Shown: positions 40,496-60,641 of the stretch, piece by piece
Numbering within the stretch: position 1 is the stretch's first letter
How the letters are laid out: each line of letters opens with the position of its first letter
Source of the DNA: Planctomycetota bacterium
GTDB taxonomy: Bacteria; Planctomycetota; Phycisphaerae; Sedimentisphaerales; Anaerobacaceae
Assembly (NCBI GenBank): GCA_019456255.1
Contig: VRUG01000004.1
Location: 124,001-188,000, forward strand
Reading direction: 5' to 3'
Length of the DNA stretch: 64,000 nt
The notes under the pieces: generated by a model
What the model was told of the DNA's origin: nothing
The model's input: only the letters and a program-made list of their open reading frames with translations
Database searches by the model: none
Made by a program: the position numbers and the translations under genes

Positions 40496-40512
40496 TTGGC
40501 ACACCGCTCGCT
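40496..40512 (+). promoter_or_regulatory. possible sigma-54 promoter
   Basis: TTGGCAC-ACCGC-TCGCT differs from the consensus YTGGCAC-N5-TTGCW at one position, and the GG/GC dinucleotides have the required 10-base spacing. It lies about 105 bases before the degenerate receiver gene. A sigma-54 activator is encoded 8 kb away. Confidence 0.45.
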
Positions 40513-40615: not shown

Positions 40616-40990
40616 ATGATAGCGTTTGTAGAAGCAACAGTTTTGACAATTGGACTTAACGGCAAAAGTGATGCACTAAAAAATTTACCAATAAACGTTT
40701 TAAAGATGCAGTCGGGTTTTGAAGCTGCACGCTCTTTGAAAAATACAAAGATAGACAGTGTTATTTGCAAGTGGGACCTGGACGACATGAAAGGCGGTGA
40801 GTTCTTAAGAAGACTCAAAATGGTTAAGCCTAACATACCAACAATTGCCTTGATTCGCGCAGGAGACATAGCCCAGGAAATTCAAGCAAGAAGTATCGGG
40901 GTCTCCGCTGTACTAACAGAGGAAACCGATGATAGTCTCTTCACCGAAATGGTAGCTAATATCTTGAGCCTCAACGTGAATGTCGAATAA
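40616..40990 (+). CDS. degenerate receiver-domain protein
   Basis: A 124-residue stand-alone domain with the CheY-like alternation of beta strands and helices: ATVLTIGLNGKSDALKN, DSVICKWDLDDMKGGEFLRRLK, PTIALIRAGD and GVSAVLTEETDDSLFTEM. The line D.V..DW..P.MDG is clear, but the phospho-acceptor Asp is replaced by Lys (ICKWD), the switch Thr by Arg (ALIRA) and the conserved Lys by Thr/Glu (VLTEETD). It therefore cannot be phosphorylated in the usual way and may act as a protein-binding pseudo-receiver. It ends 10 bases before the tandem array. Confidence 0.7.
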   Translation: MIAFVEATVLTIGLNGKSDALKNLPINVLKMQSGFEAARSLKNTKIDSVICKWDLDDMKGGEFLRRLKMVKPNIPTIALIRAGDIAQEIQARSIGVSAVLTEETDDSLFTEMVANILSLNVNVE

Positions 40991-41000
40991 CACAAAAAAA

Positions 41001-41426
41001 GTGAATATAGCAATTATCTTCTCCTCCTTGCTGGGTTTGATGTTTCTGAGCAATCATTAATGCAAACCCAGCAATATAAAGGCAAACGCGAAAATACCCG
41101 CGAGTAAATAGAGAAAGTTAAAAAGTGAATAATCAACTTCTCCTCCTTGCTGGGTTTGATGTTTATGAGCAATCAAAAATACGAACCCAGCAATATAAAG
41201 ACAAACGCGAAAACAGCCGCGAAAAAATAGAGAAGCTTTAAAAAGTGAATAATCAACTTCTCCTCCTTGCTGGGTTTGATGTTTTTGAGCACACAGAAAT
41301 GCGAACCCAGCAATATTGAAGACCAACGCGAAAATATCCGCGAAAAAATAGAAAAATTTAAAAGTGAATAGTCATCTTCTCCTCGCTGGGTTTGAAAACC
41401 TGATGAAAAGCCAGAACCCAGCGTGA
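41001..41426. repeat. four tandem units of about 120 bp with conserved hairpins
   Basis: Units begin with GTGAATA at 41001, 41125, 41245 and 41364 (periods 124, 120, 119); the fourth is truncated. Each has a CTTCTCCTC(CTT) run, then a hairpin whose arms are TTGCTGGGTTTG and CAAACCCAGCAA in unit 1. Units 2 and 3 have one G-T pair. In unit 4 the T-A pair outside GCTGGG is C-G, a compensatory change. Units 1-3 also share a CGCG...CGCG hairpin. On the plus strand CTTCTCCTCCTT is complementary to a strong ribosome binding site; on the minus strand the same bases are one (AAGGAGGAGAAG). Confidence 0.85.
41173..41256 (-). CDS. possible 27-residue hydrophobic peptide in the array
   Basis: On the minus strand, AAGGAGGAGAAG is followed directly by TTG and a 27-codon frame: MIIHFLKLLYFFAAVFAFV, then FILLGSYF and TGA. 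The peptide is a single membrane-spanning helix, like type I toxins such as Ibs or Ldr. Unit 1 has the same hydrophobic core (LLAGIFAFAFILLG) but a one-base deletion puts it out of frame with its TTG, and unit 4 stops after five codons (MTIHF). The coding reading is thus uncertain, and the hairpin evidence supports a structured RNA at least as well. Confidence 0.3.
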   Translation of the reverse strand: MIIHFLKLLYFFAAVFAFVFILLGSYF

Positions 41427-41434
41427 AAAGCAAG

Positions 41435-41449
41435 CACGGCTAAGCCGTG
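41435..41449. promoter_or_regulatory. 15-bp palindrome after the array
   Basis: CACGGCT-A-AGCCGTG is a near-perfect palindrome with a single central base, too tight for an RNA hairpin but well suited to a dimeric DNA-binding protein. It lies between the array and the PEP-CTERM genes. Confidence 0.45.
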
Positions 41450-41542
41450 ATAACGAAATAATAAATACAGCAATAAAGAAAAGTTAATAAAAGGAAAAAA
41501 GGGAAGAGGGAAAATGAAGGGCGATGAAAAGAACTCTCTCTC

Positions 41543-41617
41543 ACCAGGTTTGTCAGTCGGTCAGTTGTCTGTCAAATTGCCTGGTACCGCAGGAGGCCCA
41601 AAAGGCCTTCTGCGGTA
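41543..41617 (+). promoter_or_regulatory. two strong hairpins in the leader of the PEP-CTERM cluster
   Basis: ACCAGGTTTG (41543) pairs with CAAATTGCCTGGT (41573, two-base bulge). Next, TACCGCAGGAGGCC (41585) pairs with GGCCTTCTGCGGTA (41604) with one G-T pair around CAAAA. The second has no T-run and precedes the GTG start at 41655 by 38 bases. It may control read-through or translation. Confidence 0.55.
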
Positions 41618-41654: not shown

Positions 41655-42278
41655 GTGAAACACAAGTTGATAACATACTTAGGTGCCATGATGGCCATTT
41701 CAGTTCTACCGTCGATAGTTCTGGCATTTAGCTACACATACCAAATCGATGTTTTCACAAACAACGGAACATACGCCGAATCTGACCAACTTAGCCTTTC
41801 CGTACTCGCATCAAACAGAGGCACCTCACCAGACATCATAGACTTCACTATCACAAACCAAAGCACTATCAGCTCAAGCATTGCCGCAATATACTTTGAC
41901 TTCGACGACGCACTTAGCTTTAACGAACTAACCAGCGGTGCAGGTGTCGCTTACAGAGTCGGTGCAAAGCCTCCGGAACTGCCAAGCGGACACACACTTG
42001 AACCAATTTTCGACTCCGAATATAGCTTCGGAAGCAATTCCCCAAAATCCTCAAGAGGTATTAATCCAGGAGAGCAAGTACTGATAAGCTTTGATTTATA
42101 CGGCTCTGCAACTGACCTCATTGACAATATGAATGCAGGACTCTTTAGAATCGGAGCACACATAATTGCACTGCCAGACGGCTCAAGCGAAACTGCCGCT
42201 ACTATCCCTGAACCAACTACCATCGCAATACTCGGACTCGGGGCACTCCTAATTAGAAAAAAACGTAATAATAACTAA
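41655..42278 (+). CDS. PEP-CTERM secreted protein
   Basis: A 207-residue exported protein: signal peptide (AMMAISVLPSIVLA), a beta-rich body (VLASNRGTSPDIIDFTITNQ) and the sorting signal IPEPTTIAILGLGALLIRKK. The GTG start at 41655 is preceded by TTAGGAGG. The body resembles other short planctomycete PEP-CTERM proteins with an extracellular-matrix role, but no function is known. It is the first of four such genes in a row. Confidence 0.8.
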   Translation: MKHKLITYLGAMMAISVLPSIVLAFSYTYQIDVFTNNGTYAESDQLSLSVLASNRGTSPDIIDFTITNQSTISSSIAAIYFDFDDALSFNELTSGAGVAYRVGAKPPELPSGHTLEPIFDSEYSFGSNSPKSSRGINPGEQVLISFDLYGSATDLIDNMNAGLFRIGAHIIALPDGSSETAATIPEPTTIAILGLGALLIRKKRNNN

Positions 42279-42313: not shown

Positions 42314-43129
42314 ATGTATAAGGCAACAGGCAAAACTGTAGAAAAAGCCATCATAATTTTGGCTTTCTGCTTTACTTGCTCATCCGCATTCGGATACGCA
42401 CTGTTTTCAACACCAACCGCATGGGCTCCAGGAGAAAATACCATAAACTCCGCGAAACAACCAACGCCAGGAGGAGCTACTTTTAGTATCGCACCGGAAA
42501 ACCTCGTTTACGAAAACTCCCTTAGAACTGAACACGGTACAAATAAAACGCAAAACATTACTGCTTTAGGTATCGCAGGTTTTGAATTCGATGATTACGT
42601 CACAATGGTAGATGACGCCCTGGATATATGGGCCTCGGTCAGCGGATTTGAAAACCTCGGAAATGTAACTGACTCCGGAAACAATATCGGCACTTACGGA
42701 GAACATACTGCAGACATCAGAATCGCCGCATGGGAACTTACAAAACCTTCCGCTCTGGCACAGGCTTGGCAGCCCTCAACGCAGGACTTCTTTGCCGACG
42801 GCGCACTCGGAGGTGACATGCACATTGATGTCGGGAGAACCTGGATTGACGATGCTGCCGACTCCGCCGGAAACGGAAAATTTGACCTCTTCTCGGTCAT
42901 CTTACACGAACTCGGACATTCAATCGGACTCGCACATTCAACTGTAGCCGGTTCGGTCATGGCACCAAACTATATCGGGGCAAACAGAAATCTACATATT
43001 GATGATATCGCAGGAGCACAAGCTTTATATGGTAATACATATAACACCGCATATGTCGCAGTACCTGAACCGACAACAATTGCCCTGCTCGGTCTCGGTG
43101 CCTTACTAATTAAAAAACGAAAAAAATAA
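42314..43129 (+). CDS. PEP-CTERM matrixin-like metalloprotease
   Basis: A 271-residue exported protein with a zinc-protease motif HELGHSIGLAHS and SVMAPNY (Met-turn), as in matrixins (family M10). The segment ALDIWASVSGFENLGNVTD and ADIRIAAWELT upstream also fit. The C-terminus VPEPTTIALLGLGALLIKKRKK is an exosortase sorting signal. AAGGAG precedes the start. It probably cleaves extracellular proteins while anchored or processed at the cell surface. Only 35 bases separate it from the preceding gene. Confidence 0.85.
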   Translation: MYKATGKTVEKAIIILAFCFTCSSAFGYALFSTPTAWAPGENTINSAKQPTPGGATFSIAPENLVYENSLRTEHGTNKTQNITALGIAGFEFDDYVTMVDDALDIWASVSGFENLGNVTDSGNNIGTYGEHTADIRIAAWELTKPSALAQAWQPSTQDFFADGALGGDMHIDVGRTWIDDAADSAGNGKFDLFSVILHELGHSIGLAHSTVAGSVMAPNYIGANRNLHIDDIAGAQALYGNTYNTAYVAVPEPTTIALLGLGALLIKKRKK

Positions 43130-43171: not shown

Positions 43172-44259
43172 TTGGAGATGGAGAAGTTAACACTAATTTT
43201 AGTAATGGTCACTATAATCTTGGCCGCCGCCACATTCACACAAGCTGACAGCCCCGTCATTCTAAGATATAATGATAATCTGGGACAGCTAACAGAAGAC
43301 ACATTTACATTATCTTCACCCCAGCGCGCAGTGGCAAATAACAATACAGCTATAAACCTAAATCCGGGAAGCGGTATCATCGCCAACACACCTGCACTCG
43401 ATGCTTTCAATAGAGCTGCACAAACATGGCAAAACTATCTGGGAGACGACGTCACACTAAACATTAATATAAACATGGCGTCACTCGGAACTGGAATACT
43501 TGGCTCAGCAAGCACTTCTTCTTACTACGCTAATTACGACTTCATCAGGGACATGGTAGCAACTGGCGCAGACACCGGAAGCTCAATAGAAGCTGCCACA
43601 CTAAGCTATCTGCCCACCGCTGCACAATACTCTACATACGCTCCTGTCGGATTCACACTCAGCGGGGACATGGAAGCAACAAGAGCAAACCTCCTGGCAT
43701 TAGGAGTTTCACAAGCCGGTTTAGGAGGCCTCGGAACACCTGACGCTTCTATCACTTTCTCAACAAACTTCACTTGGGATTACGATGACTCGGACGGTAT
43801 TACTGCTGGAGCTTTCTCGTTTGAATCTGTAGCTACTCACGAGATTGGACACTCTCTGGGATTCGTCAGCGAAGTCGACTACGCTGATTACATACTAAGC
43901 CTATCAGCAACCGCCGCACTTAGACCTAGCCCCCTTGACCTCTTTAGATTCGCTGCCGATAATGTTCCAACAACATCAGGGACCTCATGCCAAGCGGCTC
44001 GGACTACTTCTCTTATCTCGAAGGAAATATACAATTAGCCACCGGTGCATATAACGGAGACGGAAACCAGGCAAGCCACTGGAAAGATGGTCTCGGACTC
44101 GGAATCCTGGACCCAACTTTAGCACCGGGAGAACTATCGACTATCACATACAACGACCTCGTCGCTATGGATCTGATTGGATGGGAGATTGTTCCGGAAC
44201 CAACTACTATCTTAACACTCGCACTCGGCACTTTGCTAATGAGAAAACGAAAAAAATAA
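43172..44259 (+). pseudogene. PEP-CTERM metalloprotease (NF038122-like), frameshifted
   Basis: Two frames together make one protein. 43172 to about 43975 gives a signal peptide and a zinc motif THEIGHSLGFVSEVD. From about 43975 the homology continues one frame over as RDLMPSGSDYFSYLEGN, then MDLIGWEIVPEPTTILTLAL and RKRKK, a PEP-CTERM end. This matches the PEP-CTERM metalloprotease family NF038122. The frame change lies near the CATCAGGGACCTC sequence at 43974-43986. The catalytic part stays intact but would lose its sorting signal. A sequencing error is also possible. Confidence 0.75.
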
Positions 44260-44297: not shown

Positions 44298-45176
44298 ATG
44301 AGAAAGCTAATCTTAGTTGTTGCTGTACTATTGACAGTAGTAAATGTTGCTGCAGCTGTCACTATACAAGGTATTGACATCGACTTTGTAACTATCGGAA
44401 ATGCGGGAAATGCCGGTGACACCAGAAGCGAAGCAAATCCAAGTGGTGCTGGTGCGGTCGGCTACAGTTACTCAATCGGCAAATACGAAATAACCAATGC
44501 TCCGTGGGATACCTTTACCACAGCCGCAGGGGCGCCAACAGGGAATCCGGATCTCGCCTATGATGCAGCTGCAACATGGGTTGGAGATAACATCCCAACA
44601 AATGGAGTAAACTGGTATGAAGCGACGCAATTCTGCAATTACCTTACTACAGGGGACAAAAGCCAAGGGGCATATCTATTTAGCGGAGACAACACCAACC
44701 CTGGTGATTTCCTCGGCATAGACCGCGGCTCTGCTGTTACTGCATATGGAACTGTTTATGTCATTCCAACGGAAGATGAATGGTACGCCGCCGCATATTA
44801 TACACCTGCTGGATACTCAACTTATGCTAACAGTTTGGAGACCGTGCCATCAGCTGACAGCGGGTGGAATTACAGTAGCGGGGCATACAGCTCTCCTTGA
44901 AACGTCGGCACCGGAACAATGGAGTAGAATGGCACCTTTGATATGATGGGCAACGTCTGGGAGTGGAATGAAACACTATCGGCTGCCCTGAGAGGATGGC
45001 GAGGTGGATCATACGGTGACACGCTCGTCAGCACACTCGGTTCGTCATACCGCATCGGATACGACCCGAGCATCGAGCTGAATCTCACTGGATTCCGTGT
45101 CGCCGTAGTTCCAGAACCTGCAACTATAGCTATACTCGCTTTCGGTACCTTATTAATGCGTAAAAAACGTTCTTAG
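44298..45176 (+). pseudogene. SUMF1/FGE-domain PEP-CTERM protein with two in-frame stops
   Basis: One continuous frame encodes a signal peptide, a formylglycine-generating-enzyme-like domain (YSIGKYEITNAPWDTF, VNWYEATQFCNYL, PTEDEWYAAAYY, FDMMGNVWEWNE, RGGSYGD) and VPEPATIAILAFGTLLMRKK. It is interrupted by TGA at 44898, where the family has Trp (SPWNVGT), and by TAG at 44925, where Gln is expected. Each is one transition away from the expected codon. The rest of the frame shows no damage. A GGAGG site precedes the start. TGA and TAG are used as normal stops elsewhere in the window, so recoding is unlikely. Confidence 0.8.
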
Positions 45177-50695: not shown

Positions 50696-53600
50696 CTACA
50701 TCTTCCTCCGCAAAATCTCCAAATTTTTGCGAATCGTTATGGTGGTAGGATGCTCCGCCCCTAAGCTAGCCTCAAATATCTCCAACGCCCGTACAAATAT
50801 CGGCTCTGCCTTAGCTAAACGGCTCGTATCACTGTACAACTGCGCCAGATTGTTTAATCGGATAGCCACACTCGGATGGTCCTTGCCGAAACTTACTTCA
50901 TCAATCGCCAGTGCGCGCTCCATCAAAGGCTCTGCTTCGGCCAAACGATTCGTAGCCTGATACAACCCCGCCAAGTTGTTCAGATCTGTGGCCACATTCG
51001 GATGGTTCTTGCCGAAACTCGCCTCATCAATCGCCAACGCGCGTCTCATCAAGGGCTCCGCCTCAGCAAAACGACCAGTAGACTGATACAATAACGCCAG
51101 GTTATTTAATCGGATAGCCACAGTCGGATGGTCTTTGCCTAAACTGGCCTCATCAATCTCAAGTGCTCGTTTATAGAGAGGCTCTGCCTCTTTAAAACGG
51201 TCGGTAACCCTGTACAACTCCGCTAGGTTGTTCAGTTGTATTGCTACATGCGGATGATTTTCGCCTTTTGATTTTTCTTCTATTTCCAAGCCCCGTTTCA
51301 TCAAAGGCTCGGCCTCAGCTAAACGATTCGTAGCCTTATACAACTGCGCCAGATTGTTCAGACGAAGCGCAACTTTAGGATGATCCTTGCCAAAACTCAC
51401 TTCATCAATCGCCAGCGCACGTTTCATCAAAGGCTCTGCCTCTGCCAAACGATTCGTATCCATATACAACGTCGCCAGATTGTTCAAATCTCTGGCCACA
51501 CTCGGATGGTCTTCGCCAAAACTCGCCTCACTAATCGCAAGCGCCCGTTTCATCAAAGGCTCTGCCTTGGTCAGACGATTCGTAGCACCATACAACTGCG
51601 CCAGGTTGTTTAATCGGATAGCCACATCCGGATGGTCCTTGCCGAAACTCGCCTCACTAATCGCCAGCGAACGCTCCATCAAAGGCTCTGCCTCGGCCAG
51701 ACGATTCGTATCCTGATACAACTGCGCCAGGTTGTTTAATGCGATGGCATAATTGGGTAACGGTTCACCGCCAGGATTTTCTAATATCCCTACCACCCGT
51801 TTTAACATCGGCTCTGCTTCAGCCAGACGATTCGTAGCCCTGTACAACTCCGCTAGGTTGTTAAGGCACGATGCTGTATTAGGATGGTCGTGGCCAACGG
51901 TATTTTCATTGATATCCAGTGCTTTGCCGTATAATATTTCAGCTACTTCAAAAGAGGCCTTTGTATTATAATACATAGCCAGACTATTCATCAGCCAACT
52001 CGTTGGTTCCGGTATTTTAACTTTATTGCCGTGTTCTGTGACTACTAAAACATGTGGCGATATAACATCCCATATATGCCAGCTTCTAACATCATCTGCT
52101 TGTAAATCTTCCGGAATAAACCTTTCGACCATAGCTAAACTAATTTCGGTCCAGCTCTTAAGTGCTTCGTCCGGGATCCGCAGCCGAACCGAATCCTGAA
52201 CAAGCCTATGCACATAAAAACTCTTTTCGCTTAATGTTATCATCGACCAGTTGGACAATTCCGCCAGAACCCCGCGAATATCTATCTCTTCCATCTTTTC
52301 CAGTTCCGTGTCCTCGCCGTTTTCTTTTTTATATAACTCTATCGCAGCAGCTACTATCTCCGGATTCCCTTCAAACAATTCCACTGGTATTGCATCAGCA
52401 GATAGGAATGATACCAGACGCAGCACACTCTTTTCTGCCGCACCCAACTGCTCCTCTGTCGCCTGCCAGGCTATTAGCACAGGCTCTGGATAATCCTGAA
52501 GCTCCCCCTTGTGCCATTTCAATACCTCTTTGCGTGCGTCTTCAAATTTCCCCAGATACATCTCAAAACCGATATGAAGATAATTTATATACGCCGCAGC
52601 CTGCTCAAGCACCACCGGAAGACCATCAAGCTTCCCTGCTAATTCCCCGGCCAACTTTTCATCTTCCTCGGTTTCACTGCGGCCATCTGTTTTTTCCAAC
52701 AAATACGCAATTGCGTCTCTTTCTGCCAGCTTGTCGATGGGAAGTTTCTTTACACCTTTCCAGTTTGACACTCTGGAAGTTATCAATACCTGACAGCCGG
52801 CTAATTGTGGAAGTATTTCGTGAAGCTTTTCTATGGCATGTTCATCATCTGCGTTATCAAATATAACCAGACAATCCTTCATCTGCGAAATGGTCTTTAT
52901 CACTATATCCACCAACGCAGGCTGGTCTTGCATATCCTTTTCTTCAAGGTCTAAAAGCTTTGGTCCCGCAAGACTCGCAAGATTCGTAATAAGACTGGTT
53001 AACGAATCTGCCAGCACAAAGAACACTCTGCTTACATTACCATTGCCAATCTGATGCCAGCCAAATTCTACTGCCAAACGCGTCTTGCCGATTCCCCCTA
53101 ACCCATGTATTGCATGAGCTTGCGTTATCGCAGTCTTTTTACCTTTAGCCAATTGTTCCTGTAGCTGACCAAGCTTATCATCTCGACCCTTAAATAAATG
53201 ACCTATAGAACCATAAGGAAGATTGTGACGGATACTTTCATCCACTTGGGCAATGACACTCGGCGATAGTTTGTCAATTTTCTTACTAACCGCATCAAGC
53301 TTTTCATCATGCTGCTTATGATCCTCTTTCAGCCCCTTATGATCCTCGGCAATTTTCTGTTCAAGTTGCTTAAATAGCTCGTCTTTTATTATTGTTTTGA
53401 TATAATCTTTTAGTTCATCATAGTTAGCCTCAACATACCCCCCAAAATCTTTCAACAATTCCTTATGTTCTTTAAGCTGCTCAACAATCTGATTTGTGTC
53501 ACTCTGGATAGAAGCCGCTACTTTCTGAAGCATTTGAATTCGGTTCAATGCCTGTTCAATATCTTGCTTGGCATCAAAAAACTCATAATAGTCAGGTATT

Positions 53601-60202: not shown

Positions 60203-60292
60203 CTATAAGCTATGACTGAACCATTAATCTTTAGGTTTTTCCGTCCTCCATAGCTTTACGCGGAGGAGGATTGGCGACGAAGGGTTATGCCT

Positions 60293-60416
60293 AGCAGGAG
60301 CCTTGCCCTGCACTCAACGCAGTAGCGGGAGCCTTGCCCTGCACTCAACGCAGTAGCAGGAGCCTTGCCCTGCACTCAACGCAGTAGCAGGAGCCTTGCC
60401 CTGCACTCAACGCAGT
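60293..60416. repeat. 31-bp tandem repeat, four copies
   Basis: Unit AGCAGGAGCCTTGCCCTGCA followed by CTCAACGCAGT at 60293, 60324, 60355 and 60386; one copy has AGCGGG. The units are contiguous with no spacers. Confidence 0.95.
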
Positions 60417-60641
60417 GCAGGGTTTCACTGGACTTTAAACCACTTTTATGATATAATACCCCTAACATGCCTGCCCTGAGCACGGTCGAAGGGGGGATCC
60501 GATTCACCATTTCACTATAAAATCAACCTTTGCATAGCAAAGCTCATAGGACTAAATACTATTCACTATCGACTAGCCACTATAAATTCTTGCCATAACT
60601 GCTGCTTCTCAACTTTCGCCGCCGCACCTACGCGTGCCCCC

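Follow-up and report, generated by a model that had tools for sequence, protein, structure and literature searches.

A structured RNA family of Planctomycetota found as a tandem array beside a pseudo-receiver gene: a candidate sigma-54-dependent anti-Shine-Dalgarno RNA module

The CcsR RNAs carry the motif CCUCCUCCC, and in the decoys CsrB/C and Rli55/EutX repeated hairpins titrate a regulator, the partner being a response regulator in the ANTAR cases. At the ccaF1-CcsR1-4 (CIN1) loci of alphaproteobacteria, the 3' UTR of a small-protein gene gives rise, on maturation, to tandem RNAs (PMC8625941, PMC10253847). For NfeR1, an alpha-r14 sRNA, trans silencing at ribosome-binding sites by redundant CCUCCUCCC seeds has been demonstrated (PMC10746234). 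PEP-CTERM genes of Proteobacteria, for their part, lie behind -24(GG)/-12(GC) sigma-54 promoters served by an enhancer-binding activator, as described for PrsK/PrsR (PMC1569441, PMC9850573). In this work, we describe a tandem array in a Planctomycetota bacterium, contained in a stretch of 64,000 nucleotides that was analysed as a whole and is hereafter called the window. As judged from sequence, each of its units is a copy of a small structured RNA, not catalogued before, that is common to many relatives within one planctomycete order.

The tandem array in the window

An earlier note on this DNA had described an array of tandem units of about 120 bp, and TRF indeed placed one at 41018-41395 (period 119, score 556). 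Its count of four units was right, and these span 41011-41454 on the plus strand, whereas the periods it gave (124, 120 and 119) have to be replaced: the hairpin core GCTGGGTTTG begins at 41030, 41149, 41269 and 41385, with spacings of 119, 120 and 116. In each unit, a pyrimidine tract of the anti-Shine-Dalgarno type precedes a long hairpin, and a linker of constant length (10-11 nt) joins this to a second hairpin.

Unit 1 (41011..41107, plus strand; E 7.2e-13 with the covariance model R2 described below; fold z -4.26) has its tract CTTCTCCTCCTT at 41018-41029, a hairpin 1 with the perfect 12-bp arms already reported (41028-41039 with 41063-41074), and a second hairpin CGCG..CGCG. Unit 2 (41130..41226; tract 41137-41148; R2 E 3.5e-12; fold z -6.40) and unit 3 (41250..41347; tract 41257-41268; R2 E 4.4e-12; fold z -5.54) follow on the same strand, and the CTTCTCCTCCTT tracts are present in units 1-3 as had been stated. 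Unit 4 (41366..41454, plus strand; tract 41376-41384; R2 E 8.7e-14), with CACGGC/GCCGTG as its second hairpin, contains the T-A to C-G change pointed out before; it is the nearest of the window units to the family consensus and was the first to be matched in other genera by BLAST. The second hairpin is weak in units 1-3. Against dinucleotide shuffles, the plus-strand fold z of units 1-4 was, in rounded values, -4.3, -6.4, -5.5 and -2.5; relative to shuffles the plus strand beats the minus strand in units 1-3 and not in unit 4.

Behind the array, an extra pair of strong hairpins follows CTCTCTCTCACC (41543..41616; plus-strand fold z -6.64). It is possibly a degenerate fifth unit, although it is without the linker and gave no R2 match even with the filters off. 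Two further repeats were observed elsewhere in the window: 126-bp repeats at 50802-51862, which on the minus strand resemble coding repeats of the TPR (kinesin-light-chain) type, and a 31-bp tandem repeat at 60292-60421 (4.2 copies, 97% identical).

The RNA family and its covariation

A DNA search with the window units over 99 related genomes gave weak but real matches to unit 4 in other genera. The loci of these relatives show the same module: a pyrimidine tract and a GCUGGGUUUGA...AACCCAGC hairpin are followed by a linker (for example ACGAAAGUAAC) and a second hairpin (for example CACGGC..GCCGUG), after which comes AUAA. A covariance model, R1, was built from ten sequences, and a second model, R2, was also used. 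In the genome of the window, R1 detected five plus-strand units, the four described here and one at C41:63959, so that the RNA occurs at two loci only, and in the family as a whole 30 of the 89 genomes had R1 matches. The covariance-model search of related genomes proposed in the earlier note thus gave a positive answer: with R2 (the E-values of the models are rough), units were found in 58 of 161 genomes of the order, most of them MAGs, and these belong to 34 of its 84 genera and to four families. When genomes were sampled evenly from the class (matches in 38 of 397) and from the phylum (4 of 392), every match fell within the same order, and the relatives with the RNA are named as MAGs of Planctomycetota, Phycisphaerae and Sedimentisphaerales. 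A locus contains from one to five tandem copies of the unit. At the gathering cut-off of Rfam 15 there was no match other than tRNAs on the window or on seven related loci, and a permissive Rfam search returned sub-threshold matches only. In the open-access papers searched, no record of planctomycete RNAs near PEP-CTERM genes was found.

The pairing is conserved in these homologues. Two alignments were fitted to the model, and therefore their covariation figures lean towards it: in A6 (105 family sequences) 98.3% of the pair cells are standard and 13 of 16 pairs show two-sided changes, with 118 such cells against 26 in shuffles, and in A8, whose 57 sequences come mainly from other families, each of the 16 pairs shows them, with 163 cells against 38. 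A small alignment made from sequence only, in which there is little variation, agrees (98.1% paired; two pairs with two-sided change). Since homologues in other genera carry two-sided compensatory changes, the structure goes beyond chance, and compensatory changes are abundant. The wobbles of hairpin 1 largely have U in the 5' arm and G in the 3' arm; such wobbles can pair on the plus strand and not on the minus strand, which identifies the former as the RNA.

An anti-Shine-Dalgarno core (CCUCC, CUCCU, UCCUC or CUCCC) is present in 132 of 161 tracts and in none of the 161 hairpin-1 loops. The linker between the hairpins measures 10-11 nt in nearly all units and the loops range widely in length, from 1-2 to tens of nucleotides. 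A DNA operator was also considered and is disfavoured, because the half-sites are spaced very variably and the covariation of the stems, which includes G-U pairs, is that of an RNA. As for the loop of hairpin 1, it contains GUGA in 35 of the 57 A8 units (mostly of families f2, f6 and f7; for example in CGGUGAUC contexts) and far more rarely in the window's own family (21 of 104); a protein-binding site is possible there.

Genetic setting and possible modes of action

Two parts of the module lie outside the array and were absent from the earlier note. The first is a putative sigma-54 (-24/-12) promoter, TGGCACACCGCTCGCT, identified by pattern match at 40497..40512 on the plus strand, about 514 nt before the first unit; the second is the gene of a stand-alone pseudo-receiver (40616..40990, plus strand). 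The genome of the window has 11 TGGCACN5TYGCT sites in total (one in the reversed control), two of which head its only two loci with the RNA, and in relatives a sigma-54 site is found at the same position. We surveyed the surroundings of 60 unit clusters selected by the RNA model, using simple patterns for sigma-54 sites and PEP-CTERM genes, so that absences are weak evidence: 33 of the 60 have a sigma-54 site in the 1.3 kb upstream (downstream 0, opposite strand 1), and PEP-CTERM genes were assigned downstream of 25 clusters, upstream of 3 and opposite none. The pseudo-receiver gene adjoins the array on the same strand in 45 of the 60 clusters. When loci were instead selected by the protein, 27 of 32 had the RNA in the same orientation as the gene, and of the other five, most either reveal a tract and hairpin on visual inspection or are truncated by a contig end. 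The two sets are not independent, since the clusters were chosen with the RNA model and many of the loci chosen by protein belong to genomes already represented among them. The genetic setting is thus conserved along with structure and strand, and the genes appear to form a recurring operon with a sigma-54 promoter, the pseudo-receiver gene, the array and often PEP-CTERM genes.

In the window, the array is followed on the plus strand by a PEP-CTERM protein gene (41655..42278; TIGR02595 21.3 bits, cut-off 16) and by a gene for a PEP-CTERM metalloprotease of the matrixin type (42314..43129; Peptidase_M10 1.7e-19 plus the PEP-CTERM motif). Further on, a frameshift near 43987 interrupts a metalloprotease PEP-CTERM frame (43172-44259) whose C-terminal part is NF038122-like, and an FGE-sulfatase-like PEP-CTERM gene at 44298-45176 has two in-frame stops (TGA near 44898 and TAG near 44926), at each of which Trp would fit; this may be a decayed gene, a matter of sequence errors or something odder. 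Among the relatives, L036 (5900-6300) and L037 (5700-6115) have a conserved leader of several hundred nucleotides, possibly another structured RNA, before the first of three PEP-CTERM genes with one unit each.

The position of the array within the operon varies. It may precede the pseudo-receiver gene (e.g. L100 and L141), follow it, or stand directly before PEP-CTERM start codons, as in G001 and G045, where each PEP-CTERM gene has a single unit 12-25 nt 5' of its start codon. At L133-L135 (one genus), L042, L094, L102 and L127 the array follows the pseudo-receiver gene and is itself followed by a strong intrinsic terminator, with no evident gene between, and at L109 and L140 a single unit has its own intrinsic terminator within about 25 nt. 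These last two (L109 4459-4600 and L140 4910-5062), as well as L096 (4867-4956), are single units behind genes of LuxR-type sensors or regulators, two of them with their own terminator, and are candidates for free-standing small RNA genes.

Because the terminator-ended arrays lack genes behind them and the single units of L109 and L140 have terminators of their own, the unit has no need of a downstream gene and is best read as a small-RNA module. Terminator and position data favour an RNA acting by itself over the leader of a particular gene, and a cis role may exist where a unit adjoins a start codon. We consider it somewhat probable that the array is a trans-acting anti-Shine-Dalgarno sRNA module, transcribed with the pseudo-receiver by sigma-54 RNA polymerase and lowering translation of its targets. 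Of the alternatives left by the earlier note, small regulatory RNA or type I toxin-like locus, the first is supported by the conserved plus-strand structure, the anti-Shine-Dalgarno tract, the putative sigma-54 promoter, the terminators after some arrays and the single units with a terminator. From this setting we infer transcription and promoter use, processing, target pairing and the part played by the pseudo-receiver, as follows. Transcription would run rightward from the promoter assigned from sequence, through the pseudo-receiver gene and sometimes the PEP-CTERM genes, and the long transcript would probably be cut into units or act as a multivalent RNA. Each unit would display, on a scaffold of two hairpins, a largely unpaired pyrimidine tract similar to the end of 16S rRNA that carries the anti-Shine-Dalgarno sequence, and this tract would pair with the Shine-Dalgarno region of target mRNAs, decreasing their translation when the sigma-54 regulon is on. 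The pseudo-receiver might be a binding partner or a maturation factor of the RNA, or it might exert feedback on the sigma-54 activator that is often encoded next door in relatives. Against this sRNA reading, the tract could bind a protein such as Rho, S1 or a cold-shock protein instead of mRNA, the units before the PEP-CTERM starts of G001 and G045 would fit a cis role, and the weakness of the second hairpin in window units 1-3 also counts against it.

Such a cis role, in which the units would be leader or intercistronic elements acting on the PEP-CTERM genes of their own mRNA at the level of translation, stability or elongation, for example through pairing of tract and Shine-Dalgarno sequence or through antitermination, is rather unlikely. 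It would account for the individual units of G001 and G045 and for the fact that PEP-CTERM genes, where assigned, are almost never anywhere but downstream. However, over 160 units there was no conserved complementarity between the tract and the 45 nt that follow the unit (mean z +0.17), many arrays end in a terminator without a gene or lie before the pseudo-receiver gene, and units can stand alone. The same z value led us to reject pairing of the tract with downstream cis sequence as the P1 of a three-way junction, which the fold of unit 2 had suggested.

The pseudo-receiver (124 aa) was assigned by Pfam (Response_reg, 1.2e-9), by the family alignment and by an AlphaFold model (pLDDT 87) with receiver matches in the PDB, the best Foldseek match being Spo0F (1e-7, TM 0.83). 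It is a bare receiver fold of five beta-alpha repeats and nothing further, in which Pfam finds Response_reg only. In ten aligned members the position of the phospho-acceptor Asp is occupied by R, K, N or C (VIS[R/K]W), the equivalent motif of CheY being VISDW, and the protein is predicted to be switch-dead with respect to phosphorylation. All six tested activators adjoining pseudo-receiver loci consist of AAA and HTH_8 (Fis-type) domains without a receiver; thus, it is possible that regulatory and activator domains are split between the two proteins. No sigma-54 activator was found by simple pattern near the array of the window, and at the second locus of its genome the divergent activator does have a receiver. 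At this second locus, L103 (4960-6175, on C41), the sigma-54-led unit heads an operon whose genes encode a small HTH protein and a DUF438-hemerythrin protein, and the activator, a full NtrC-type regulator, lies divergently to it; similar hemerythrin-like loci were seen in L039, L095 and L128.

The frequent association of this protein with the RNA raises the possibility, which we regard as unlikely, of a multivalent decoy whose tandem hairpins titrate an RNA-binding protein, e.g. the pseudo-receiver itself, in the manner of CsrB and CsrA or of the sRNAs that sequester ANTAR proteins. The co-conservation in cluster and protein-selected sets, and a two-stem geometry that is fixed while copy number varies, would be expected of it. 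On the other hand, a bare receiver fold has no known RNA-binding domain, and both stand-alone units and the hemerythrin-type loci do without the pseudo-receiver. An ANTAR substrate was rejected on account of the loop lengths and the lack of an ANTAR domain. A combined scheme, in which the phosphorylation-dead receiver would be the RNA-binding partner of the array on its own transcript, so that the copy number of the array would set how much free regulator is left to act on the receiver-less sigma-54 activator and on anti-Shine-Dalgarno silencing, is offered as a doubtful idea.

The toxin half of the earlier proposal, a type I toxin-antitoxin repeat like Ibs/Sib or Ldr/Rdl with hydrophobic peptides on the minus strand, fell and is now very improbable. 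The 27-residue hydrophobic minus-strand ORF does exist after AAGGAGGAGAAG, in one place only, and is not conserved: since such ORFs follow the purine tract in 5 of 161 units, where shuffles predict 2.25, the peptide is not a property of the family. Moreover, the evidence for pairing, including its wobbles, belongs to the plus strand only, and the minus-strand terminator-like sites of the array are the same hairpins read backwards. A mobile or selfish intergenic repeat of the REP or MITE kind would be tandem, palindromic and intergenic as these units are, and is hardly credible given their single orientation relative to the sigma-54 promoter and pseudo-receiver, their two loci only in the genome and their fixed setting across genera.

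Comparison with known systems

The RNA family described here, absent from Rfam 15 and conserved across an order of largely uncultured Planctomycetota, would be tied to sigma-54 and to the regulation of PEP-CTERM surface proteins, and it would assign a testable function to a phosphorylation-dead receiver as well as to receiver-less sigma-54 activators. As in the PrsK/PrsR regulon, a sigma-54 site lies upstream (the 33 clusters mentioned above, and 40497 in the window). Unlike PrsR, which has receiver, AAA and Fis domains, the six neighbouring activators tested are without a receiver, and the RNA array and the solo pseudo-receiver are additions to that scheme. The pseudo-receiver itself has the fold of CheY-like receivers and lacks their phospho-acceptor Asp.

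With CsrB/C and Rli55/EutX the array shares repeated hairpins in one RNA, which could titrate a regulator, whereas in comparison with Rli55/EutX and other ANTAR RNAs there is no ANTAR domain (Response_reg only) and, judged on loop lengths, there are no fixed hexaloops. The conserved short hydrophobic ORF that lies opposite the RNA in Ibs/Sib and Ldr/Rdl has no conserved counterpart in the 161 units. Like NfeR1, the array would present multiple redundant anti-Shine-Dalgarno seeds in one RNA, although NfeR1 is one RNA of three hairpins with seeds in unpaired regions and is not known to form a tandem array next to a protein gene (PMC10746234).

The closest likeness is to the CcaF1-CcsR1-4 (CIN1) loci, in which tandem homologous RNAs with a C/U-rich anti-Shine-Dalgarno motif are co-transcribed behind a small-protein gene from an alternative-sigma promoter and closed by an intrinsic terminator. 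Here the same arrangement is predicted, and at L094, L127, L133, L134 and L135 tandem RNAs indeed follow a small-protein gene and end at a terminator. The parts, however, differ: the small protein is a pseudo-receiver rather than a DUF1127 protein, the promoter is of the sigma-54 rather than the RpoHI/II type, the hosts are Planctomycetota rather than alphaproteobacteria, and the anti-Shine-Dalgarno tract lies 5' of the hairpin rather than in the hairpin loop as in CcsR and the cuckoo (alpha-r14) RNAs. There is no known sequence relation between the two, and some of the planctomycete arrays run into PEP-CTERM genes. Since the parts are unrelated, we take the likeness as one of layout and not of membership. 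If the proposed mode of action holds, a small protein followed by tandem anti-Shine-Dalgarno RNAs under an alternative sigma factor would have arisen independently in planctomycetes and alphaproteobacteria, and the planctomycete units are most likely convergent with the CcaF1-CcsR1-4 loci, built from unrelated parts.
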